From NCBI GenBank assembly GCA_947650285.1, contig CANTFL010001283.1, positions 186,001 to 250,000 on the forward strand: DNA of 64,000 nucleotides. Reading direction: 5' to 3'. Each line of letters opens with the position of its first letter. The first letter of the stretch is position 1. The position numbers and the translations under genes are program-made. The notes below the pieces were generated by a model. It saw only the letters and a list, made by a program, of their open reading frames with translations, did no database searches and had not been told where the DNA came from. This stretch comes from Hyaloperonospora brassicae. Lineage: Eukaryota; Oomycota; Peronosporomycetes; Peronosporales; Peronosporaceae. This document shows positions 6,717 to 42,789 of the stretch, one piece after another.

Positions 6717-7487
6717 CTATCGATTTGCACCTTCCAGTCGCAGCTCAAAAACTACGCTCCAGTCGTCCTCTTGGACGTGCAGGGGCCGACCTAGTGCACC
6801 TACTAACGTGTTTACGGCCTCGCAAGTCGCCAGACGGACCGGTGGATGTTTGTAAACCGCAAAGCCTTTCTGCTTTGCTGCAAATACAAAGTGCGAAGCT
6901 GTACACTTCTCCACGTCGCACGCTCCTACACAGGCAGCTCGACATGGATCCATCGAGAGAAGCGCTACAGACCTGGCACTGGGTCGGAGGACGCAGCAAA
7001 TCGTTTCAAGCAGCGGCACGTGTAGATCTCTTCCTAGCTGCGTGATCTCACTACCCAAAACCGTGTCGAAACGGTGCGCAAACGGCGCCACGGACTTGGC
7101 TAGACCCCATTCAAGCTCAGCGCTCGAAGCGACTGGTTCTCGAGCATCACCAGCTTCCTTCTCAGCCCAAATGTGGCGGTTCTTGGCAATGTTTTTCGTC
7201 AGCATGTCAGGAAACTCATCGGTTAAAACGGATGTTTTTGCACCCAGCGACGCAGCCACGAGACCACAAAGACCACAGCCTGCACCAAGCTCGATGACGT
7301 CGCGTCCCACTACCACATCGTAGCCGTGTGTTTCTAGAAACTCGCAAAGGATAAGCGCACCAGCCCATACTTCGCCGCCTAGTCCGTCCACCTTCGTCGT
7401 GTCTTGTACTACGCGAACACAGACGTGATCACGTGGCTGTTTTAGACGAAAGAAGGCTTCGTGCTCTTGCTGAAAGTGTCGGCTCAT
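6717..7487 (-). CDS. METTL21-type protein-lysine methyltransferase (Methyltransf_16)
   Basis: This single-exon gene has 256 codons from an ATG at 7485-7487 to a TAG at 6717-6719. The SAM-binding motif I is VIELGAGCGLCGLVAASLGA (about residues 63-82), followed by an acidic TDEFPDML segment and a GSEITQ segment where the family usually has its DVLY-like post-II motif. An N-terminal block, GLGGEVWAGALILCEFL, is the usual seven-beta-strand lysine methyltransferase lead-in. Characterised members trimethylate single lysines on chaperones, elongation factors or valosin-type ATPases. The substrate here cannot be read from sequence. The gene is intact, with no sign of transfer or decay. The upstream region contains a 41-bp tandem duplication. 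Confidence 0.85.
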   Translation of the reverse strand: MSRHFQQEHEAFFRLKQPRDHVCVRVVQDTTKVDGLGGEVWAGALILCEFLETHGYDVVVGRDVIELGAGCGLCGLVAASLGAKTSVLTDEFPDMLTKNIAKNRHIWAEKEAGDAREPVASSAELEWGLAKSVAPFAHRFDTVLGSEITQLGRDLHVPLLETICCVLRPSARSVALLSMDPCRAACVGACDVEKCTASHFVFAAKQKGFAVYKHPPVRLATCEAVNTLVGALGRPLHVQEDDWSVVFELRLEGANR

Positions 7488-10205: not shown

Positions 10206-10968
10206 TCGCTAAAGCGCAACACGTCCTACACTGCAGATAGTCATATTGCAGCGATACCCTCTGTTCCTTAACGATAGTCGTTTCTGTCTGTCTACACCAG
10301 CTTCAGCACCACAATTGGCAGCTTGTATTGAGACAATGGCATCACTTCATCAGCAGTGCGCCATCGGCCATCGTGCTTCCCGATACGTGTGTCTGCAAAC
10401 ACCGCGTTGTCACTTTTCAAAGCGTTAGATAGTTCAATCAACTCTTCAGTAAAGTATCTGCTGTTGCTGTCTATGTCTATAAATGTTGCCTCTTATTTTA
10501 TAACGTTCTTATTTAGCATTGTGTAAACAACAGTTGAACACTGCTCTATCATCTTATGTTATGTCATCGATAACGCCGAGGGGACAGCTACACGCTACTA
10601 TAACGTCAAACAATGAGACCCGGATCAAGCGATTACCCTCCGGTTGTGTTAGAAAAGCCAACGCGCCTTTTTGTCATGCAAAATTAATGTCGGCGGACAC
10701 AGATGAAAAGGTTTGCTACATAGCTAAGTAACTGAGGGAATGAAAAAGATATACGTGGCACTCATGAATAATGTATCAGGCTTATGAATACCTGCTTGTG
10801 CAGCTCATACCATGAATGCATTTCGTTTCATTCATGTGTAGAGCAATATGTTACTTTCGGATTATCTGGTGCGCATTTTTCCGTTTCGAATCCATTTGGT
10901 GCACATTTTATTCTCATCATTTTCTAGTGCATTATTAAATCTTCCCATCTATCGTGTTATTATTGCCC
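10206..10968. other. Intergenic upstream of PEX10
   Basis: No gene is evident. About 45-60 bp before the PEX10 ATG the plus strand has a TTCTCATCATTTTC string (about 10911-10924). It partly resembles the oomycete initiator plus flanking element, but is two bases shorter than the consensus spacing. Confidence 0.35.
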
Positions 10969-12162
10969 ATGAAGCCGTTCACGGCAGCAAGCGCATTCCC
11001 GACTGCAGGATGTACGGAGCTCCTACTAGCTGACAGCAAGGACGCGGTCTATATAAATGAGCTCAAAAACGTGTTACATGGGGTGGCAGAGCGCGTCTAC
11101 GGGTCACATTTCATCTCGCAGCTTCTGCCGGAGTTGTCTACGTTGTCCACACTGCTCTACTACGCACTATCCATTGGCATGCAGCAGCCACGTCAGACCC
11201 TGGGCGAAGAATTTTGTGACATCATCCGCGTAGCGAAGTTTACGTCGGAGCCTGTTGAGCCTTTGCGGCTTTCACAACACGTACTTTGGCTCGCATGTAA
11301 TGTGCTGCCATCGTACCTAGCTGCACGATCGCAGAACGGATGGAACAACTTATGTCAGCTCACGCACACGTCACGGGAGCGCATGGAGCAGCAAATTCGT
11401 TTTCGGCAAGAATCTGACACGATAACACGAGAAGACACAGAAGGTTCCGGTGGAGTGCTGGGGCCGCTTTCGACATACAGAATGGCTACATTTACTCCGC
11501 ATCGACTGCTTCGTGGACTTGACAGAGTTGTGTCAAAAGTGAAAGTTATGCGCGGATGGATCGAAGTCAATATTGCACCGCAATCGTATGAATTTAATTT
11601 GGAAAGTGTACATCAGTGGGGAACTGACGCACACCTTGCAATATTCTACGCGTTCGCCCAGTACTTACACATGTCGAAGCGAATTGCCAGCATCCAGTAC
11701 GTTTTTGTACGCAAAGACGTAAGGCCCGGTCTCAATCTTTCCGTACTTGGATATATAATGTCGCTGCGGCTATTTACCACGGCGATGGTCGAGATGAAGA
11801 GACTGCACGGACACACCAGACAGTACAAGAAGCGGAGGCAGCAAGCATACTTAGCTAGCAGTGTCCCTGCATCTGTACTCGATCAATCAGCAAGAGTTCC
11901 CGTATCTCGTTCCCAAGCGAAAGTAAACTCAAGCTCTAATCAGAATCCAGTGGAACGCGCAGATGCTGGTATCTCTCGGCTGCTTCGTCGTAAATGTGCA
12001 CTTTGTCTTAGTGGACGCATTTCCCCTGCTGCCACCCCATGTGGTCACATATTTTGCTGGGGATGTATTGTGAGTTGGTGTCAGAAGGTAAAGGCCGAGT
12101 GCCCTCTGTGTCGCCGGGAGACGCACCCTCAGCAAATCAAGTGCGTGTACAACTATGTCTAG
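10969..12162 (+). CDS. PEX10: Peroxisome biogenesis factor 10, RING-type E3 ligase
   Basis: This single exon encodes 397 residues. The first ATG is at 10969 (MKPFTAAS); open sequence extends to a GTG at 10954, which I reject. The middle part carries the PEX2/PEX10/PEX12 membrane-domain signature (HLAIFYAFAQYLHMSKRI, then QYVFVR and VLGYI). A C-terminal C3HC4 RING spans about residues 343-381: CALC, PCGH, CWGC, CPLC, all eight ligands present. PEX10 sits in the peroxisomal membrane and, with PEX2 and PEX12, ubiquitinates the import receptor PEX5 for recycling. The RING sequence and the position of the membrane block fit PEX10 better than PEX2 or PEX12; PEX12 lacks several RING ligands. The next gene is convergent, with 98 bp between the two stop codons. 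Confidence 0.9.
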   Translation: MKPFTAASAFPTAGCTELLLADSKDAVYINELKNVLHGVAERVYGSHFISQLLPELSTLSTLLYYALSIGMQQPRQTLGEEFCDIIRVAKFTSEPVEPLRLSQHVLWLACNVLPSYLAARSQNGWNNLCQLTHTSRERMEQQIRFRQESDTITREDTEGSGGVLGPLSTYRMATFTPHRLLRGLDRVVSKVKVMRGWIEVNIAPQSYEFNLESVHQWGTDAHLAIFYAFAQYLHMSKRIASIQYVFVRKDVRPGLNLSVLGYIMSLRLFTTAMVEMKRLHGHTRQYKKRRQQAYLASSVPASVLDQSARVPVSRSQAKVNSSSNQNPVERADAGISRLLRRKCALCLSGRISPAATPCGHIFCWGCIVSWCQKVKAECPLCRRETHPQQIKCVYNYV

Positions 12163-12907: not shown

Positions 12908-14070
12908 TGTTTAATGTTGTCTGATAAAATCATAGTTTTTGATTCGTCTACTTACGATGTCCATTCAAATTTAGTGCTTTTTCACTCTAAGGTTGATGGA
13001 TGCTAGCGGCTGCATAGTAGTATCAGGGTGTTTGGTCCTGTCATTAGAATGAGGGACGCTCTAATATTACATCGAAAATATGCATCAACAAAGATAAAAT
13101 TTTCGCTGACGCAATATAGCAACATTATAGCTGTAGATATTTTCCTGCACAATATTAAATGGCCTAATTATTAATAATGTCGTTTAAAAATATTCTGTTG
13201 CATATTCTTTCAACTATAAATTGTCTGCAGTGAAGTTGCTCCGGTGACTCATAAATTTCCTGATTGTTTAATATAGGACATTAAAGCAACCTACCAATTG
13301 CTCCTAGACGCGCGCAATGGGTGTTGAGAAGCCGTCATAATTCATGATTGTATATCGTTATAATTGACTTATAAGTCGTTATATAGATAAGATCAAGGAC
13401 GAGATTAAACATGGTTGCAACTTTTCTTCTTTACTACTGCGCATCGTTAATGGTAGCTATACCTCCATCTGCATACTTGCACTTGAGGCAGCAGGGTGCA
13501 AGATCAACATGTTATCAGTTAGGGTCATCTCGTACTGTATCTTGCACAAAGACAATAGAGCTATGTTACCAATTGGGTCGTTAACGTATGTTTCAAGCAA
13601 TAAATAGAAACAAACTAAATTTATATATGCTAAAATTATGGAACTAAATTCAAGCGTATTGTACACTTGCTAAGTTTTCGTACATGATAATATGATTTTG
13701 ATCGATTATTGGGACAGGCGGCATAACGTATTTCCGTACAGCAGTTTCTGATACTACTTTCATGGTCGCACGGATAGTGGTACTAAATACGATCGGTGCA
13801 TGCGTGCTTGGCTAGCCCAAGAATCCAAGCAAACGAAAAGATGGTCGTTGTGAATTGTAAAAAGCCTACACATCTGCCACTTTCTCTTGTTCCCAGTATC
13901 ATCCATTCAAGTGATAACACATGACTGCTGCAAGTTTTTGGAAGTAAAAGATGCACTTATGTTGACTATAACTATATAATCTACAGTAGCGCACATATAT
14001 TATGGTATGAAGGATTTTTTGTACGGTTTAAGTCATCATATATATACATTGGATATTTTTTACTTGTTCA
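12908..14070. other. AT-rich intergenic, no gene seen
   Basis: Only short open frames are present, none with a recognisable product. This is the transition from the gene island to transposon-derived sequence. Confidence 0.55.
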
Positions 14071-14073
14071 TGT

Positions 14074-14125
14074 TCAAGCCACTGACGAGGCCCCGGCGGG
14101 CTTTGTATGCGTCGGCGTGAGATTT
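14074..14125 (+). ncRNA. Decayed hammerhead-ribozyme-like motif
   Basis: TCAAGCCACTGACGAGG at 14074-14090 is identical over 17 bases to the hammerhead-like motif on the minus strand near 41.08 kb, including the CTGACGA core box (14082-14088). Downstream, the region that should hold GAAA and the helix III arms is changed (TTGTATGCG, then CGGCGTGAG). The motif is therefore a relic, not an active ribozyme. It lies about 150-250 bp upstream of the first recognisable LINE coding sequence. Confidence 0.4.
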
Positions 14126-14328
14126 CATACAGTTTTATCTACTTATTCAATTTAGTTCAAGTATTACAGAAGGTAATATATTATTTCACTGGGAACACCT
14201 TTATTCATAGATTAACTACAGATTGTGTATTAAAGTGGAAGAGCTTCTAATAGCACTCAGTTGTCAGGCTGGCATTCATAAACGCGTCCGTCCTACCCTT
14301 ATAGACATTAATTTTAACGAAAACATCC

Positions 14329-39620: not shown

Positions 39621-41020
39621 GTGCAATTTCATCATTAGGTGTCTTAATCTTCAGCGCAAGGTCTATTTTGCTGAGTTAGCTCTACATTTGTAGAGCGTCC
39701 CAACTAGACGATACGCATGGCCAAAACGTCAGTTAAAAGGTTTTTCTCGGAGATTAAAAATTGGTTTTGATTACTTTAATGTATGTATATAGGCCATCAT
39801 AAATGAGAATGCCGGCAAAAAGGCTACCATCGTTCCACTTCGTCAAGTGTATCATTCCTAGTGATCTATCCCTCTTCCGATCTTGTAGAAAGCTTTATAG
39901 CACTCTCTTCACTTATAAATGTTATGTAGACTCGTGTGCACTGTATCATCAGCATATCGATTAGATGTGAGCGAAGCTATCTTTTATTATCATATGCGTT
40001 TACTGCCTGAAAACTTCATCGGACGCAGACGTATGTGTTTACAGATATTTAGTCAACTCGAATTCATAGAAGCCCTTGTTTACTCTGCTAACATGTGATG
40101 TAAAGACCAATTCCGAAAGATCCGTCTGAGATGATTTTTTATTATATTTTTACTCTGATTGGATAAAAAAAGGTATTACCAATACAGCTTAATCCAGATT
40201 TGCAAATATTTAGTTAATGATTAGTATTATTTTGGATTTTTAGTTTTTATTTCAGCTGACAAAACATTCTTTTTGCGGCCAATATAGAAATTGAATCGAC
40301 GCTTTAACATAAGTATTTTCGGTTATCTCGTTATAGCACATAAACAACCGATTGATTTCGTATTAATAATATACATTTCTACAAATTAAGTTAGTTGGTA
40401 GAACAATAAACTTACAACATGTTCCACTTCTTTATAACGCGCTTGGTAAATACAAGTAAATGGTGTTCTTGCCTTTCCCTCTGGTATACACAAACGCTAT
40501 TCTGTAAATCTCACAAATGGTTTTTGGTAACCGCAAATTGGTCTTATCGATCGCTATACTAAGTCCCTACTTGGTGCGGTATCTCAAAGACATTTATTGA
40601 GTAACTACCACGATCAATCGCTTTATTTATAATGTTATATATTAAAGATTTGGAAAAAAATGAATTTTGCAAAAAACATTCATGCTTGCTGATAAGCATT
40701 TATTATAGTTTTACCGGCTGTAACCGTAATCTGTCGATCTCATAAGAGCTCCATGTCGTTTATAAAAGCTATCCTTAAATCTCAAGGTTAATTTGATTGT
40801 ATAGCTTAATAAGCCATCGATATGCCTATCTAAACCACAAAATGGTGTGGTTGCCAAATATGGTATCACGCAATTTTTTTGATCACGTGATTAAAGTATC
40901 GTTTACAAAGTGTTTATTGTACATATACTCGATTAACTTTTCTTTATCAGAAACGAAGAAATGACAGCAGATACAAGTATAAAATATTTGATATTAGGAA
41001 AAAAATGAAGAATGTATATT
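39621..41020. other. AT-rich, nothing recognised
   Basis: No gene or repeat was recognised between the family B copy and the hammerhead-like motif. Confidence 0.5.
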
Positions 41021-41033
41021 TAATAATCTCTAT

Positions 41034-41093
41034 ATCAAAACGCGCACCAGCCGCGTTTCGGCCTCCCGACCAGGACCTCGTCAGTGGCTTGAT
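41034..41093 (-). ncRNA. Hammerhead-ribozyme-like motif
   Basis: On the minus strand the two invariant boxes are in order: CTGACGA (41084-41078) and GAAA (41059-41056). Helix II is GGTC (41077-41074) with GGCC (41063-41060), including one G-U pair. Helix III is ACGCG (41056-41052) with CGCGT (41044-41040), a 7-nt loop and U16.1 in place. The cleavage-site base H17 is T, which is allowed but less usual than C. Helix I is imperfect: ATCAA (41093-41089) pairs with TTGAT (41038-41034), but GCCA before CTGACGA has no partner. A TGGC partner may have been deleted, which would weaken or abolish cleavage. Type I hammerheads of this shape are known in Penelope-like elements and retrozymes. Confidence 0.6.
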
Positions 41094-41109
41094 CAATATA
41101 TAAGTGATT

Positions 41110-41660
41110 ACTTTCTTTATCCTGCGCTCAAACACAAAAAAATCTCTTAAAATTAGTGTACCCATAAAAAAGCTTAAATGATTATTTCCAAACCTGTTTG
41201 CTGGATCGTCGACATGGAAGGAAGTATCTGCTATGACATCTCTGATCAAAAATATCAACATCGGATTAAAACCCCAAAGTTAATTGCTGAATCTAAAATT
41301 GGGTGACCTCATAAGTCGCCATTTATATATATCGACCAAAAATAATGAATAAAGAGTAATGAGAAGCTTGACCTCATTAGGGTGATAAGATGAAGCTCAT
41401 TAATTTTATTGGAGACGCAATCAAACCCTGGTGGTCTTCAATATGTAAACATAATGCGAAAAAGAAACGTAAACGAATTTCAATTAGGCAAAAATAGGAC
41501 TAAATTTCATGAATAATACTATTTTATACCTGTCTTTTGTTCTACAATTCGTGAAAGCGAGCAAAAAAGGAGAAATAACACTTCATGTACCATATTAAAT
41601 AGAGCCAAATACCTCACAACTAATAATTTAAACGTTTTTTAAGGTAATTTTCCAAAATGG
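41110..41660. other. AT-rich flank of the inverted repeat
   Basis: No gene was recognised. The last bases before the arm (TTTTCCAAAATGG) are only loosely similar to the sequence outside the other arm. Confidence 0.5.
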
Positions 41661-42789
41661 TCGACCTAAAGGCAAAGTGATTGACGAAATTAAACCGCAC
41701 ACCAGGGAGAGTGTACCAGAAAACAAGGGTTCACGGAGGTGAAATGACTATTGGAGTAAAAAAGCTTGAGGCACCAATCAAGCGTATTATGGTCAGGGTA
41801 ACAAATATACGTTACGGAAAGGATTCGACCATGGTTCCTCATCGGAAGTCCCGTTCTCTATCTATTGACATCGTTCTCTCATCGGAAGCCCCGATCTCTT
41901 ATCTATTGACATCGTTCTCTCATCGCAAGGCACGGTCTCTTATCGATTGACCATAGTTTCTCATCGGAAGTCCCGGTATCTTATCGATTGACCTTGGTAT
42001 CTTAGTGGTGGACCCGGTCTCTTATCGATGGACCTCGGTCTTCCCGTGGTGGGCCCGGTCTCTTATAGATAGACCTCGGTCCCTCCTTGATGGCTCGGTC
42101 CCTTATTGGGTATAACTCAGTCTCTTAAGGTCAAGCTAAGCCTGGCTAGTCAAAACAATGAGTCAGAGCATAAGGCAAGGATACAAAAAAGAAGTTAAAG
42201 GATAGGAATACATTGAATACTACTCGAGTTTCGATCTACGTGGCGCGTCTCTGTCGTGATTAATGGAACTTGTCAAATATGCTCGCCTGTTTTGGGTAAG
42301 GGATACAAATTTGCCCCTCACCCCGTCGAAGACACTCGCGACGCAAGGCCAAGTGCGAATAGAACTCCAGTAGGTGTTTGGTCTGTGATTTTGTCTTGAG
42401 TAGCGCCCCCTAACGATCGGCTATCGGAAGATGACTCCCCTACCTAGTGATTAGGGAGCAAAGTAAAGCCAAGGTGGTTAACACCATTGACATAACCAGC
42501 GAAAACGTCAGGGGCAACAAGCTTCTTGAAGAATTTGGGTACAAGTCCACTTGCGACTAAGTCGATAGAAAGTGACCACCTACTGGCCCACCGGGTAAAG
42601 CACATGCACTCGGGTACTCCCAGGTCTCCCTCCTACAAGGTGATCTCTACATCCTCACCAATACCTACAGAAATTGTCATACGCCAGCTTACGAGTACAC
42701 AAGATGAGTCAAGGTCCATGCGAGGCGTCATCGTGCCCGTCCGCAAGCCAACGTTTTCGTACAGAAATAGATGTGTGGTCTCGTCACAC
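41661..42789 (+). repeat. Left arm of a 1,129-bp inverted repeat (family A)
   Basis: Line-by-line comparison with the reverse complement of 47328-48456 shows the same length and only two differences (A/G at about 41668 and at about 41898). The arm begins TCGACCT and ends GTCTCGTCACAC; similarity stops abruptly on both sides. It contains seven 40/41-bp tandem units (41841-42126) and, downstream, a non-repetitive GC-richer half. Open frames within it (for example 42526-42849) have no recognisable domain. A diverged relative lies at 53.1-54.2 kb in the same orientation, so the arm is probably LTR or leader sequence of a gypsy-type element. Confidence 0.9.
41841..42126 (+). repeat. Seven-unit 41-bp tandem array in left arm
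   Basis: Units start at 41841, 41881, 41922, 41963, 42004, 42045 and 42086 (first unit 40 bp, the rest 41). Each has the form ..CGGTCTCTTATCGATGGAC.. with an internal half-repeat of about 20-21 bp. The mirror array in the right arm is 47991-48276. Confidence 0.85.

Follow-up and report, generated by a model that had tools for sequence, protein, structure and literature searches.

A decayed solo LTR with a hammerhead-like motif in Hyaloperonospora brassicae, a probable relic of retrozyme-like, Copia-dependent non-coding elements

Results

The window analysed here is a stretch of 64,000 nucleotides from Hyaloperonospora brassicae (contig CANTFL010001283.1, positions 186,001 to 250,000). It encodes a PEX10-like peroxisome protein at 10954-12162 on the plus strand (best named matches in Phytophthora and Peronospora, 61-65% identity; one further entry at 93%) and a lysine methyltransferase domain at 6717-7487 on the minus strand. 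A decayed solo long terminal repeat (LTR) of the type termed family 1 below occupies 40993-41253 on the minus strand, with its 5' end at 41253 and its 3' end at 40993. This LTR, the boundaries of which were drawn from 29 aligned copies, matches its family 1 counterpart at locus L002 with 74% identity over 248 nt. Its target duplication is gone (flanks match at 1 of 5 bases). A 41-bp tandem repeat adjoins the LTR remnant (window 41818-42075). An older second LTR remnant, family 2 like, lies at 13938-14175 on the plus strand, its 3' limit being guessed from sequence. It shows 70% identity over 168 nt (window 13938-14100), scores 19.8 bits with model R1 at 14072-14137 and keeps CAAGCCACTGACGAGGCCCCGGCGGGC, whereas GAAA and helix III are lost.

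The family 1 LTR carries a hammerhead-like module. On the minus strand, 41034-41093 comprises, in this order, CUGACGA, the hairpin GGUC..GGCC, GAAA, then ACGCG and CGCGU around a loop of 7 nt, and finally U and an arm rich in A and U. An earlier note on this DNA had described the two boxes together with helix II (GGTC/GGCC), helix III (ACGCG/CGCGT), U16.1 and a pairing of ATCAA with TTGAT that leaves GCCA unpaired, and all of these are confirmed. All core bases of a hammerhead are found (C3 U4 G5 A6 N7 G8 A9, G12 A13 A14, A15.1-U16.1, H17). The 5' arm of helix I (41093-41105), weak here and homologous to the covarying helix I of other families, is followed by a conserved spacer leading to C3 at 41085-41092, NNAAGCCA in general and TCAAGCCA in the window copy. 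Next come the CUGANGA box (C3-A9, here CTGACGA; 41078-41084), helix II, which is imperfect here, and its loop (41060-41077), G12 A13 A14 A15.1 (41056-41059), and the remainder of helix III (CGCG/CGCG) with the 7-nt loop and U16.1 at 41040 (41040-41055). The two boxes were assigned from the sequence and its conservation in family 1, and the 3' arm of helix I (41026-41038) from arm-pairing comparisons. By homology to hammerheads, cleavage is predicted between H17 (U, 41039) and 41038. The predicted topology is that of a type I hammerhead with an extended helix I/helix II junction.

To assess chance occurrence we used a descriptor consisting of exact CUGANGA, helix II of at least 4 bp, GAA with A15.1, helix III of at least 5 bp, U16.1 and H17, with helix I optional. 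It matched the window once, at 41084 on the minus strand. On simulated DNA with the dinucleotide frequencies of the window (1128 strand-Mb), it gave 38 matches, or 0.004 expected per window. A looser, box-only pattern was uninformative (1 match in the window against 1.21 expected). The Rfam search of the window returned no family at its cut-off, and none of the hammerhead models gave a match at E≤10, either in a 601-base stretch around the site or in nine further loci that contain copies. A genome search with the Rfam hammerhead models likewise gave nothing above cut-off; control genomes were equally silent, so that absence is not implied. Two weak RF00163 matches in the genome (22.6 and 18.9 bits, both below cut-off) are best regarded as noise, since 11 of 14 control genomes also gave sub-cut-off matches. 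The covariance-model score on which the earlier note had staked its proposal was thus obtained from no Rfam hammerhead model, which, taken literally, counts against it. This silence and the abundance of box-only matches would fit a chance resemblance, but the low expectation with helices II and III included and the retention of the core in many copies make that reading highly improbable. The hammerhead-like core at 41034-41093 is thus a genuine feature that chance is unlikely to explain. The window copy itself is a relic with a poor helix I: 260 of 500 shuffled arm pairs were equally good, in line with the doubt already voiced about its activity.

We next analyzed the distribution of the module in the genome. 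A DNA search with 161 bases around the site, a query that itself contains the module, yielded 129 candidate places, and all of the best 40 of these, which were scored, matched. (In the genome DNA searches, the best 40 of 129, 252 and 147 candidates were scored.) The family 1 alignment comprises 29 of 30 loci, L027 being omitted as a member of family 2. The aligned copies share ~257 bp with abrupt ends, TGTTGGAAGTGG on the left and TTTCCTACA on the right, giving sharp LTR termini of the form TGTTGGA...CCTACA/CTAACA. The flanking 5-mers match at 4-5 of 5 bases in 20 of the 29 family 1 LTRs (exactly in 15), a set that includes some duplicates such as L017/L019 and L028/L029, compared to 29 of 812 between-locus control pairs. 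Nine LTRs fall short of this, three of which (L012, L015, L021) are each one LTR of a two-LTR element with matching outer flanks. Given the matching 5-bp flanks around single LTRs, most family 1 copies are solo LTRs.

Three or more LTR families are present in the genome, with TG...CA termini and duplications of 5 bp at the target site, and they are mutually poorly alignable. BLAST between families returns a match of 52-91 nt (85-90% identity) that spans the hammerhead in every pair; the other matches are the termini and blocks of 9-25 nt. A genome-wide hammerhead pattern that fixes most core bases and leaves N7 free gave 115 matches including nested ones, at no fewer than 72 distinct places among the 100 matches listed, and none in the control. 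Note that variation counts from pattern-found segments are biased, because the pattern fixes most core bases. GAAA and the helix III complement are kept together in many genome copies, the point on which the earlier note had made its proposal depend.

Complete elements are 0.92-1.04 kb long and have two LTRs 0.68-0.79 kb apart, without a long reading frame. The element on contig C10 has two 257-bp LTRs (8 differences) that are 786 apart, with GGCAC on each side, GGTTATGAGCCCAAG after the first LTR and a GAAGGGGAG tract before the second. The family 2 element on C857 has two 237-bp LTRs (3 differences), 681 apart, with TTGAT on each side. Family 2 in general (C857, C175 and others) shows 237-bp LTRs, units of 681-683 bases, the same primer site as C10, and GAGGGGAAG. 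The longest overlapping frames encode 107 amino acids in the C10 element and 110 in that on C857. Both elements thus combine two LTRs and a non-coding interior with a hammerhead-like module in each LTR, the hammerhead being a variant. They also have a polypurine tract (PPT) and a primer binding site (PBS) for tRNA-Met, the identity as initiator tRNA resting on our reading of the anticodon arm. The module in the window accordingly sits in the decayed LTR of a small non-coding element, the unannotated oomycete retroelement end that had been suspected. Four family 2 LTRs follow each other on C177 in steps of 675-683 bases, and longer tandem repeats including family 2 LTRs are found on C870 and C150. 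The 681-nt unit RNA is not strikingly folded (z -1.86; 1 of 20 shuffles as good).

Two identical LTRs are expected from ordinary reverse transcription of an LTR element. In an element on C276 (L035, 1995-3021), the front LTR belongs to family 1 and the rear one to family 3, with GTCAG at both outer flanks.

The 12 bases of the PBS, GGTTATGAGCCC, are complementary to GGGCTCATAACC, the anticodon arm of an initiator-Met-like tRNA. A first, stricter pattern for this tRNA gave no match. A looser one matched on C874, where 22 initiator-Met-like matches are arrayed in 574-bp steps (112547-124630); GGGCTCATAACC is accompanied there by a T-arm-like sequence (letters available for the first four). By our reading of the anticodon arm, this array would represent initiator tRNA-Met. 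The primer site together with the LTR end occurs at 301 genome sites with at most one mismatch, and the reversed-pattern control gave 0. At 42 or more of 100 listed PBS sites, a Copia reverse transcriptase domain (PF07727) follows 1.8-4.4 kb downstream on the same strand. No CUGANGAG box was found within the LTR ahead of three such Copia-linked sites (L099, L100, L101). Long tandem arrays on C558 and C804 repeat the same primer site every ~1928 and ~1438 bases, without a hammerhead-pattern match among the matches listed; tandem structure is therefore not specific to hammerhead-bearing elements.

Anticodon-loop primer sites and 5-bp duplications have been tied to Copia (Kojima 2024, PMC10886601). 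The elements described here have the short LTRs, non-coding interior, PBS/PPT and 5-bp duplication of Copia-dependent terminal-repeat retrotransposons in miniature (TRIMs), PBS sharing being the link that was tested, and they are apparently mobilised by Copia. The earlier note had instead thought of a Penelope-like element. The type I topology and the hammerheads that Penelope-like elements carry in other organisms (PMC7761336) would agree with this, but the TG..CA termini, the 5-bp duplications, the PPT, the anticodon-arm tRNA-Met primer site shared with Copia and the structure of the complete elements as short two-LTR non-coding units leave it hardly any probability.

Several promoter-like motifs were seen in the LTRs. 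ARAGORN detected no tRNA-like promoter in the LTRs of four loci. The sequence GGGTCGACKCC occurs near the LTR start in families 1 and 2 (L033 317-327, L042 2951-2961) and was not found in the family 3 LTR. The consensus of the Pol III B box is GGTTCGANTCC, to which GGGTCGACKCC appears close. A heat-shock-element-like motif, TTCTAGAAGGTTC, is present in the LTRs of all three families (L033 380-392, L042 2997-3009, L035 2848-2860), one base off in families 2 and 3. A motif of this kind also lies ahead of the primer site in L099 and L101, and TTCTAGAA occurs twice within the LTR region of two Copia elements. Such motifs, common to the small elements and Copia, could reflect a shared stress-driven promoter.

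We then examined the conservation of the module. Among the 29 family 1 copies, U4, G5, A6, G8 and A9 are invariant (29/29), C3 is kept in 28/29 and G12-A14 in 27-28/29. The 11 invariant core positions deviate from the majority in 2.2% of cases (0.022), compared to 8.3% (0.083) for the 177 LTR positions outside the module (permutation 0.00015). Corresponding values are 4.0% for the spacer AAGCCA, 2.2% for the helix III arms, 6.9% for position 7 and 11.1% for helix II with its loop. For comparisons across families we used 56 segments, located by an error-tolerant pattern in loci on the similarity lists, many family 2 and 3 loci having first been fetched through the pattern; L015, L027, L029 and L046 were omitted and identical segments merged. 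CUGANGA is intact in 47 of the 56 (27/30 in family 1, 13/13 in family 2, 7/13 in family 3). Position 7 is C in 28/30 and 13/13 segments of families 1 and 2 and G in 10/13 of family 3; at H17, families 1 and 2 have U, and family 3 mostly has C.

The unbiased sample of family 3 consists of the six copies fetched by similarity alone (L102-L107), five of which have a broken box, and the C276 query copy, broken likewise. Except for L102, family 3 copies with an intact box came via the pattern demanding it. The sampled broken-box copies are old, and no intact young family 3 element was among the copies analysed. In 55 sequences (alignment A2: the 56 segments minus L028 and L043, plus L077), helix II pairs in 88% and helix III in 97.5% of cells, both directly flanking the boxes. 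No compensatory change was detected in helices II and III among these sequences, so that both rest on conservation.

In contrast to helices II and III, helix I covaries at the family level. Its commonest pairing is ACUUCUA/UAGAAGU in family 1, ACUUGUA/UACAGGU in family 2 and ACUUUGU/ACAAGGU in family 3. Between families, both partners are exchanged in three of the seven pairs: pair 5 is C-G, G-C and U-A, pair 6 is U-A, U-A and G-C, and pair 7 is A-U, A-U and U-A in families 1, 2 and 3, which provide three independent points at most. In the 56 segments, counted at fixed offsets without gaps, 85% of cells pair (83, 97 and 78% in families 1-3) compared to 52-82% with arms swapped between families; the upper value is that of family 1 front with family 2 back arms, against 83% for family 1 with itself. 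We prefer these figures to those from an earlier set of 23 hand-picked arm pairs (10, 7 and 6 per family), in which 89% paired versus 51-82% when swapped. In folding energies, the arms of L002 (family 1) reach -9.7 kcal/mol together and -3.5 kcal/mol with a family 2 partner, whereas family 2 front arms bind family 3 back arms at -9.1 to -10.2 kcal/mol compared to -8.5 kcal/mol with their own. Within single copies, helix I beats 95% of shuffles in 4 of 9 tested, the number of shuffles (of 500) reaching it being 4 for L002, 8 for L042, 20 for L074 and 21 for L054, and 43, 55, 76, 260 and 265 for the others.

The near-identity of the module between LTR families might result from recent recombination or gene conversion rather than from functional selection. 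An LTR on C197 (L073/L074, module near position 1500) resembles family 2 in its front part and family 3 in its back part and is a recombinant joined inside the module; together with the mixed C276 element and its matching duplications, it shows that recombinants do occur. However, the differences between families in the commonest helix I pairs are compensatory, and within family 1 alone the core is less variable than the rest of the LTR. We therefore consider recombination an improbable source of the conservation. The C197 junction was also considered as support for the cleavage site and rejected, position 17 being family 3 like and the joint off the exact site.

Helix I is separated from C3 by 7-8 nt, a spacer whose last bases are GCCA. 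This tetranucleotide is present in 50 of 56 segments (26/30, 13/13 and 11/13 in families 1, 2 and 3) and in 50 of 59 pattern-found segments. The unpaired GCCA, previously attributed to a small deletion in the opposite strand, is instead part of a conserved spacer. Copies with an intact helix I had been anticipated; helices better than that of the window do exist elsewhere, but those examined keep the spacer before C3. Placing ATCAA/TTGAT next to the core with a GCCA bulge fits family 1A and the window copy but was rejected as a general helix I. A shorter helix I, ending 1-2 bases earlier, with a spacer of 7-8 nt is preferred because AA.UU is lost where positions 1.1/1.2 are C,G, as in most of family 3. 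The boundary is a matter of judgement, and family 2 then needs a 2-nt bulge.

Could the spacer be held by pairing? GCCA can pair with GGC of loop II in 91% and with UGGC of loop III in 92% of cells, although covariation with either loop did not exceed that of shuffles. The near-identical neighbours L077 and L078 (C218) show a matched change, GCUA/UAGC; the pairing with loop III is broken in L083/L086 and that with loop II in L079/L080. Thus, GCCA may hold the spacer by pairing with UGGC of loop III or GGC of loop II. The predicted free minimum lies below the best fold with unpaired boxes by 1.3 kcal/mol in L002, 3.0 in L042, 7.0 in L045 and 9.4 in the window copy. In L002 and L042 this minimum pairs GCCA and GACG with CGUC and UGGC, closing the hammerhead. 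At position 7 (C7-G52) the alternative pairing fails in 12 of the 55 sequences; most of these are of family 3 type and have G7.

These folds raise the question whether the module is a conserved RNA structure of the LTR that never cleaved or no longer does so, a fold derived from a hammerhead and retained for a different step, for example dimerisation, packaging or protection of the RNA end, with GCCA-cu-GACG/CGUC-UGGC as its working form. The closed fold is the free minimum in the well-kept copies L002 and L042, GCCA and UGGC of loop III are both conserved, and the spacer sits where a 2-nt insertion impaired a saltern hammerhead variant (PMC3088659). Against this, the necessary C7-G52 pair is lost in the sequences just mentioned, the catalytic bases of family 1 are nearly or fully unchanged, and in the whole structure including GCCA/UGGC a single pair has changed on both sides, fewer than in most shuffles. 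A non-cleaving structure is thus unlikely, though it is the strongest of the competing explanations. The closed fold does not by itself speak against function, since the hammerhead of plant retrozyme RNAs has been described in a blocked form (Cervera et al., PMC4918200).

Discussion

The site in the window is very probably the relic of a small, Copia-dependent LTR element with a hammerhead-derived module. LTR identity, target duplications, PBS and PPT, the PBS shared with Copia, the non-coding interior, the conservation of the module and the covariation of helix I at the family level were obtained here directly. That the module self-cleaves in the living element is a more guarded proposal, favoured because the catalytic bases are kept in families 1 and 2 despite changes at position 7 and in helix I. 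Three points disfavour a standard ribozyme, namely the spacer, the closed fold and the lack of Rfam matches, for which reasons we describe the elements as retrozyme-like with a hammerhead variant and assign them to neither family. Taken together, we assign a probability of roughly 0.6 to the reading of the site as a relic solo LTR of retrozyme-like, Copia-dependent non-coding elements with a hammerhead-like motif that cleaves.

For such elements we infer transcription, cleavage, circularisation and the use of Copia enzymes. The LTR would drive a transcript, which the motifs in both LTRs would cut after H17, releasing a unit RNA of ~0.68-0.79 kb. This RNA would be ligated into a circle, and a cleaved half of initiator-Met tRNA would prime reverse transcription at GGTTATGAGCCC by enzymes that autonomous Copia elements supply. 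Integration of the resulting cDNA (one LTR, unit or multimer) would duplicate 5 bp of the target.

Plant LTR retrozymes (Cervera et al. 2016, PMC4918200) are described with the same organisation: two LTRs with a hammerhead in each, a non-coding interior, PBS (tRNA-Met) and PPT, a unit RNA of 0.6-1 kb, many LTRs that stand alone, some copies in tandem, and families that differ save for the hammerhead and terminal boxes. The likeness rests on DNA, the circular RNA being predicted in our case. Differences from the plant elements as described there are the oomycete host, 5-bp rather than 4-bp duplications, an anticodon-arm PBS shared with PF07727 elements instead of Ty3-gypsy boxes, LTRs of 237-267 bp versus ~350, and a type I topology with a spacer before C3, where the plant motifs are mostly type III. 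Helenus/TRIM elements (Kojima 2024, PMC10886601) are also small non-coding LTR elements, and the fungal ones have 5-bp duplications, mostly an anticodon-loop primer site and a Copia link; their LTRs are reported to bear tRNA-like Pol III promoters, in place of the hammerhead-like module seen here. Metazoan non-LTR retrozymes and Penelope-like hammerheads share the type I topology (PMC7761336), but the metazoan retrozymes are described as lacking LTR, PBS and PPT, and helix III is weak there compared to 5 bp here.

Insertions between stem I and C3 are known from three saltern hammerheads, where they are short and were termed unprecedented (Perreault et al. 2011, PMC3088659). In HHmeta/HHphage the insertion measures 2 nt (residues 2a, 2b) and comes from a hypersaline setting, in contrast to the conserved 7-8 nt in eukaryotic LTRs described here. 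The 2-nt insertion was shown to reduce activity strongly, making cleavage slow and dependent on high Mg2+, which HHmeta needs (PMC3088659). A search by title and opening of the abstract, with most subscription journals outside its coverage, found no description of hammerheads in oomycetes or Copia LTRs, and a word search of PMC7761336, PMC6155905 and PMC11722881 found no mention of them.

A more far-reaching version, which we put forward as speculative and doubtful, is that oomycetes possess a separate lineage of LTR retrozymes, which would propagate by way of circular RNA on Copia machinery and use a new hammerhead subclass. In this subclass the NNAAGCCA spacer would have two alternative partners, UGGC of loop III and the strand freed when helix III opens, and the motif could switch between cutting and blocked forms, the latter suiting the circle.

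Plant retrozymes have been tied to Ty3-gypsy (PMC4918200) and metazoan ones to Penelope-like elements (PMC7761336). If the reading favoured here is true, the retrozyme lifestyle would have arisen or travelled beyond plants and animals, on another retrotransposon superfamily. The insertion conserved at C3 would then offer a natural experiment on the amount of change that a hammerhead active site can tolerate, an issue that a few saltern sequences have raised (PMC3088659).
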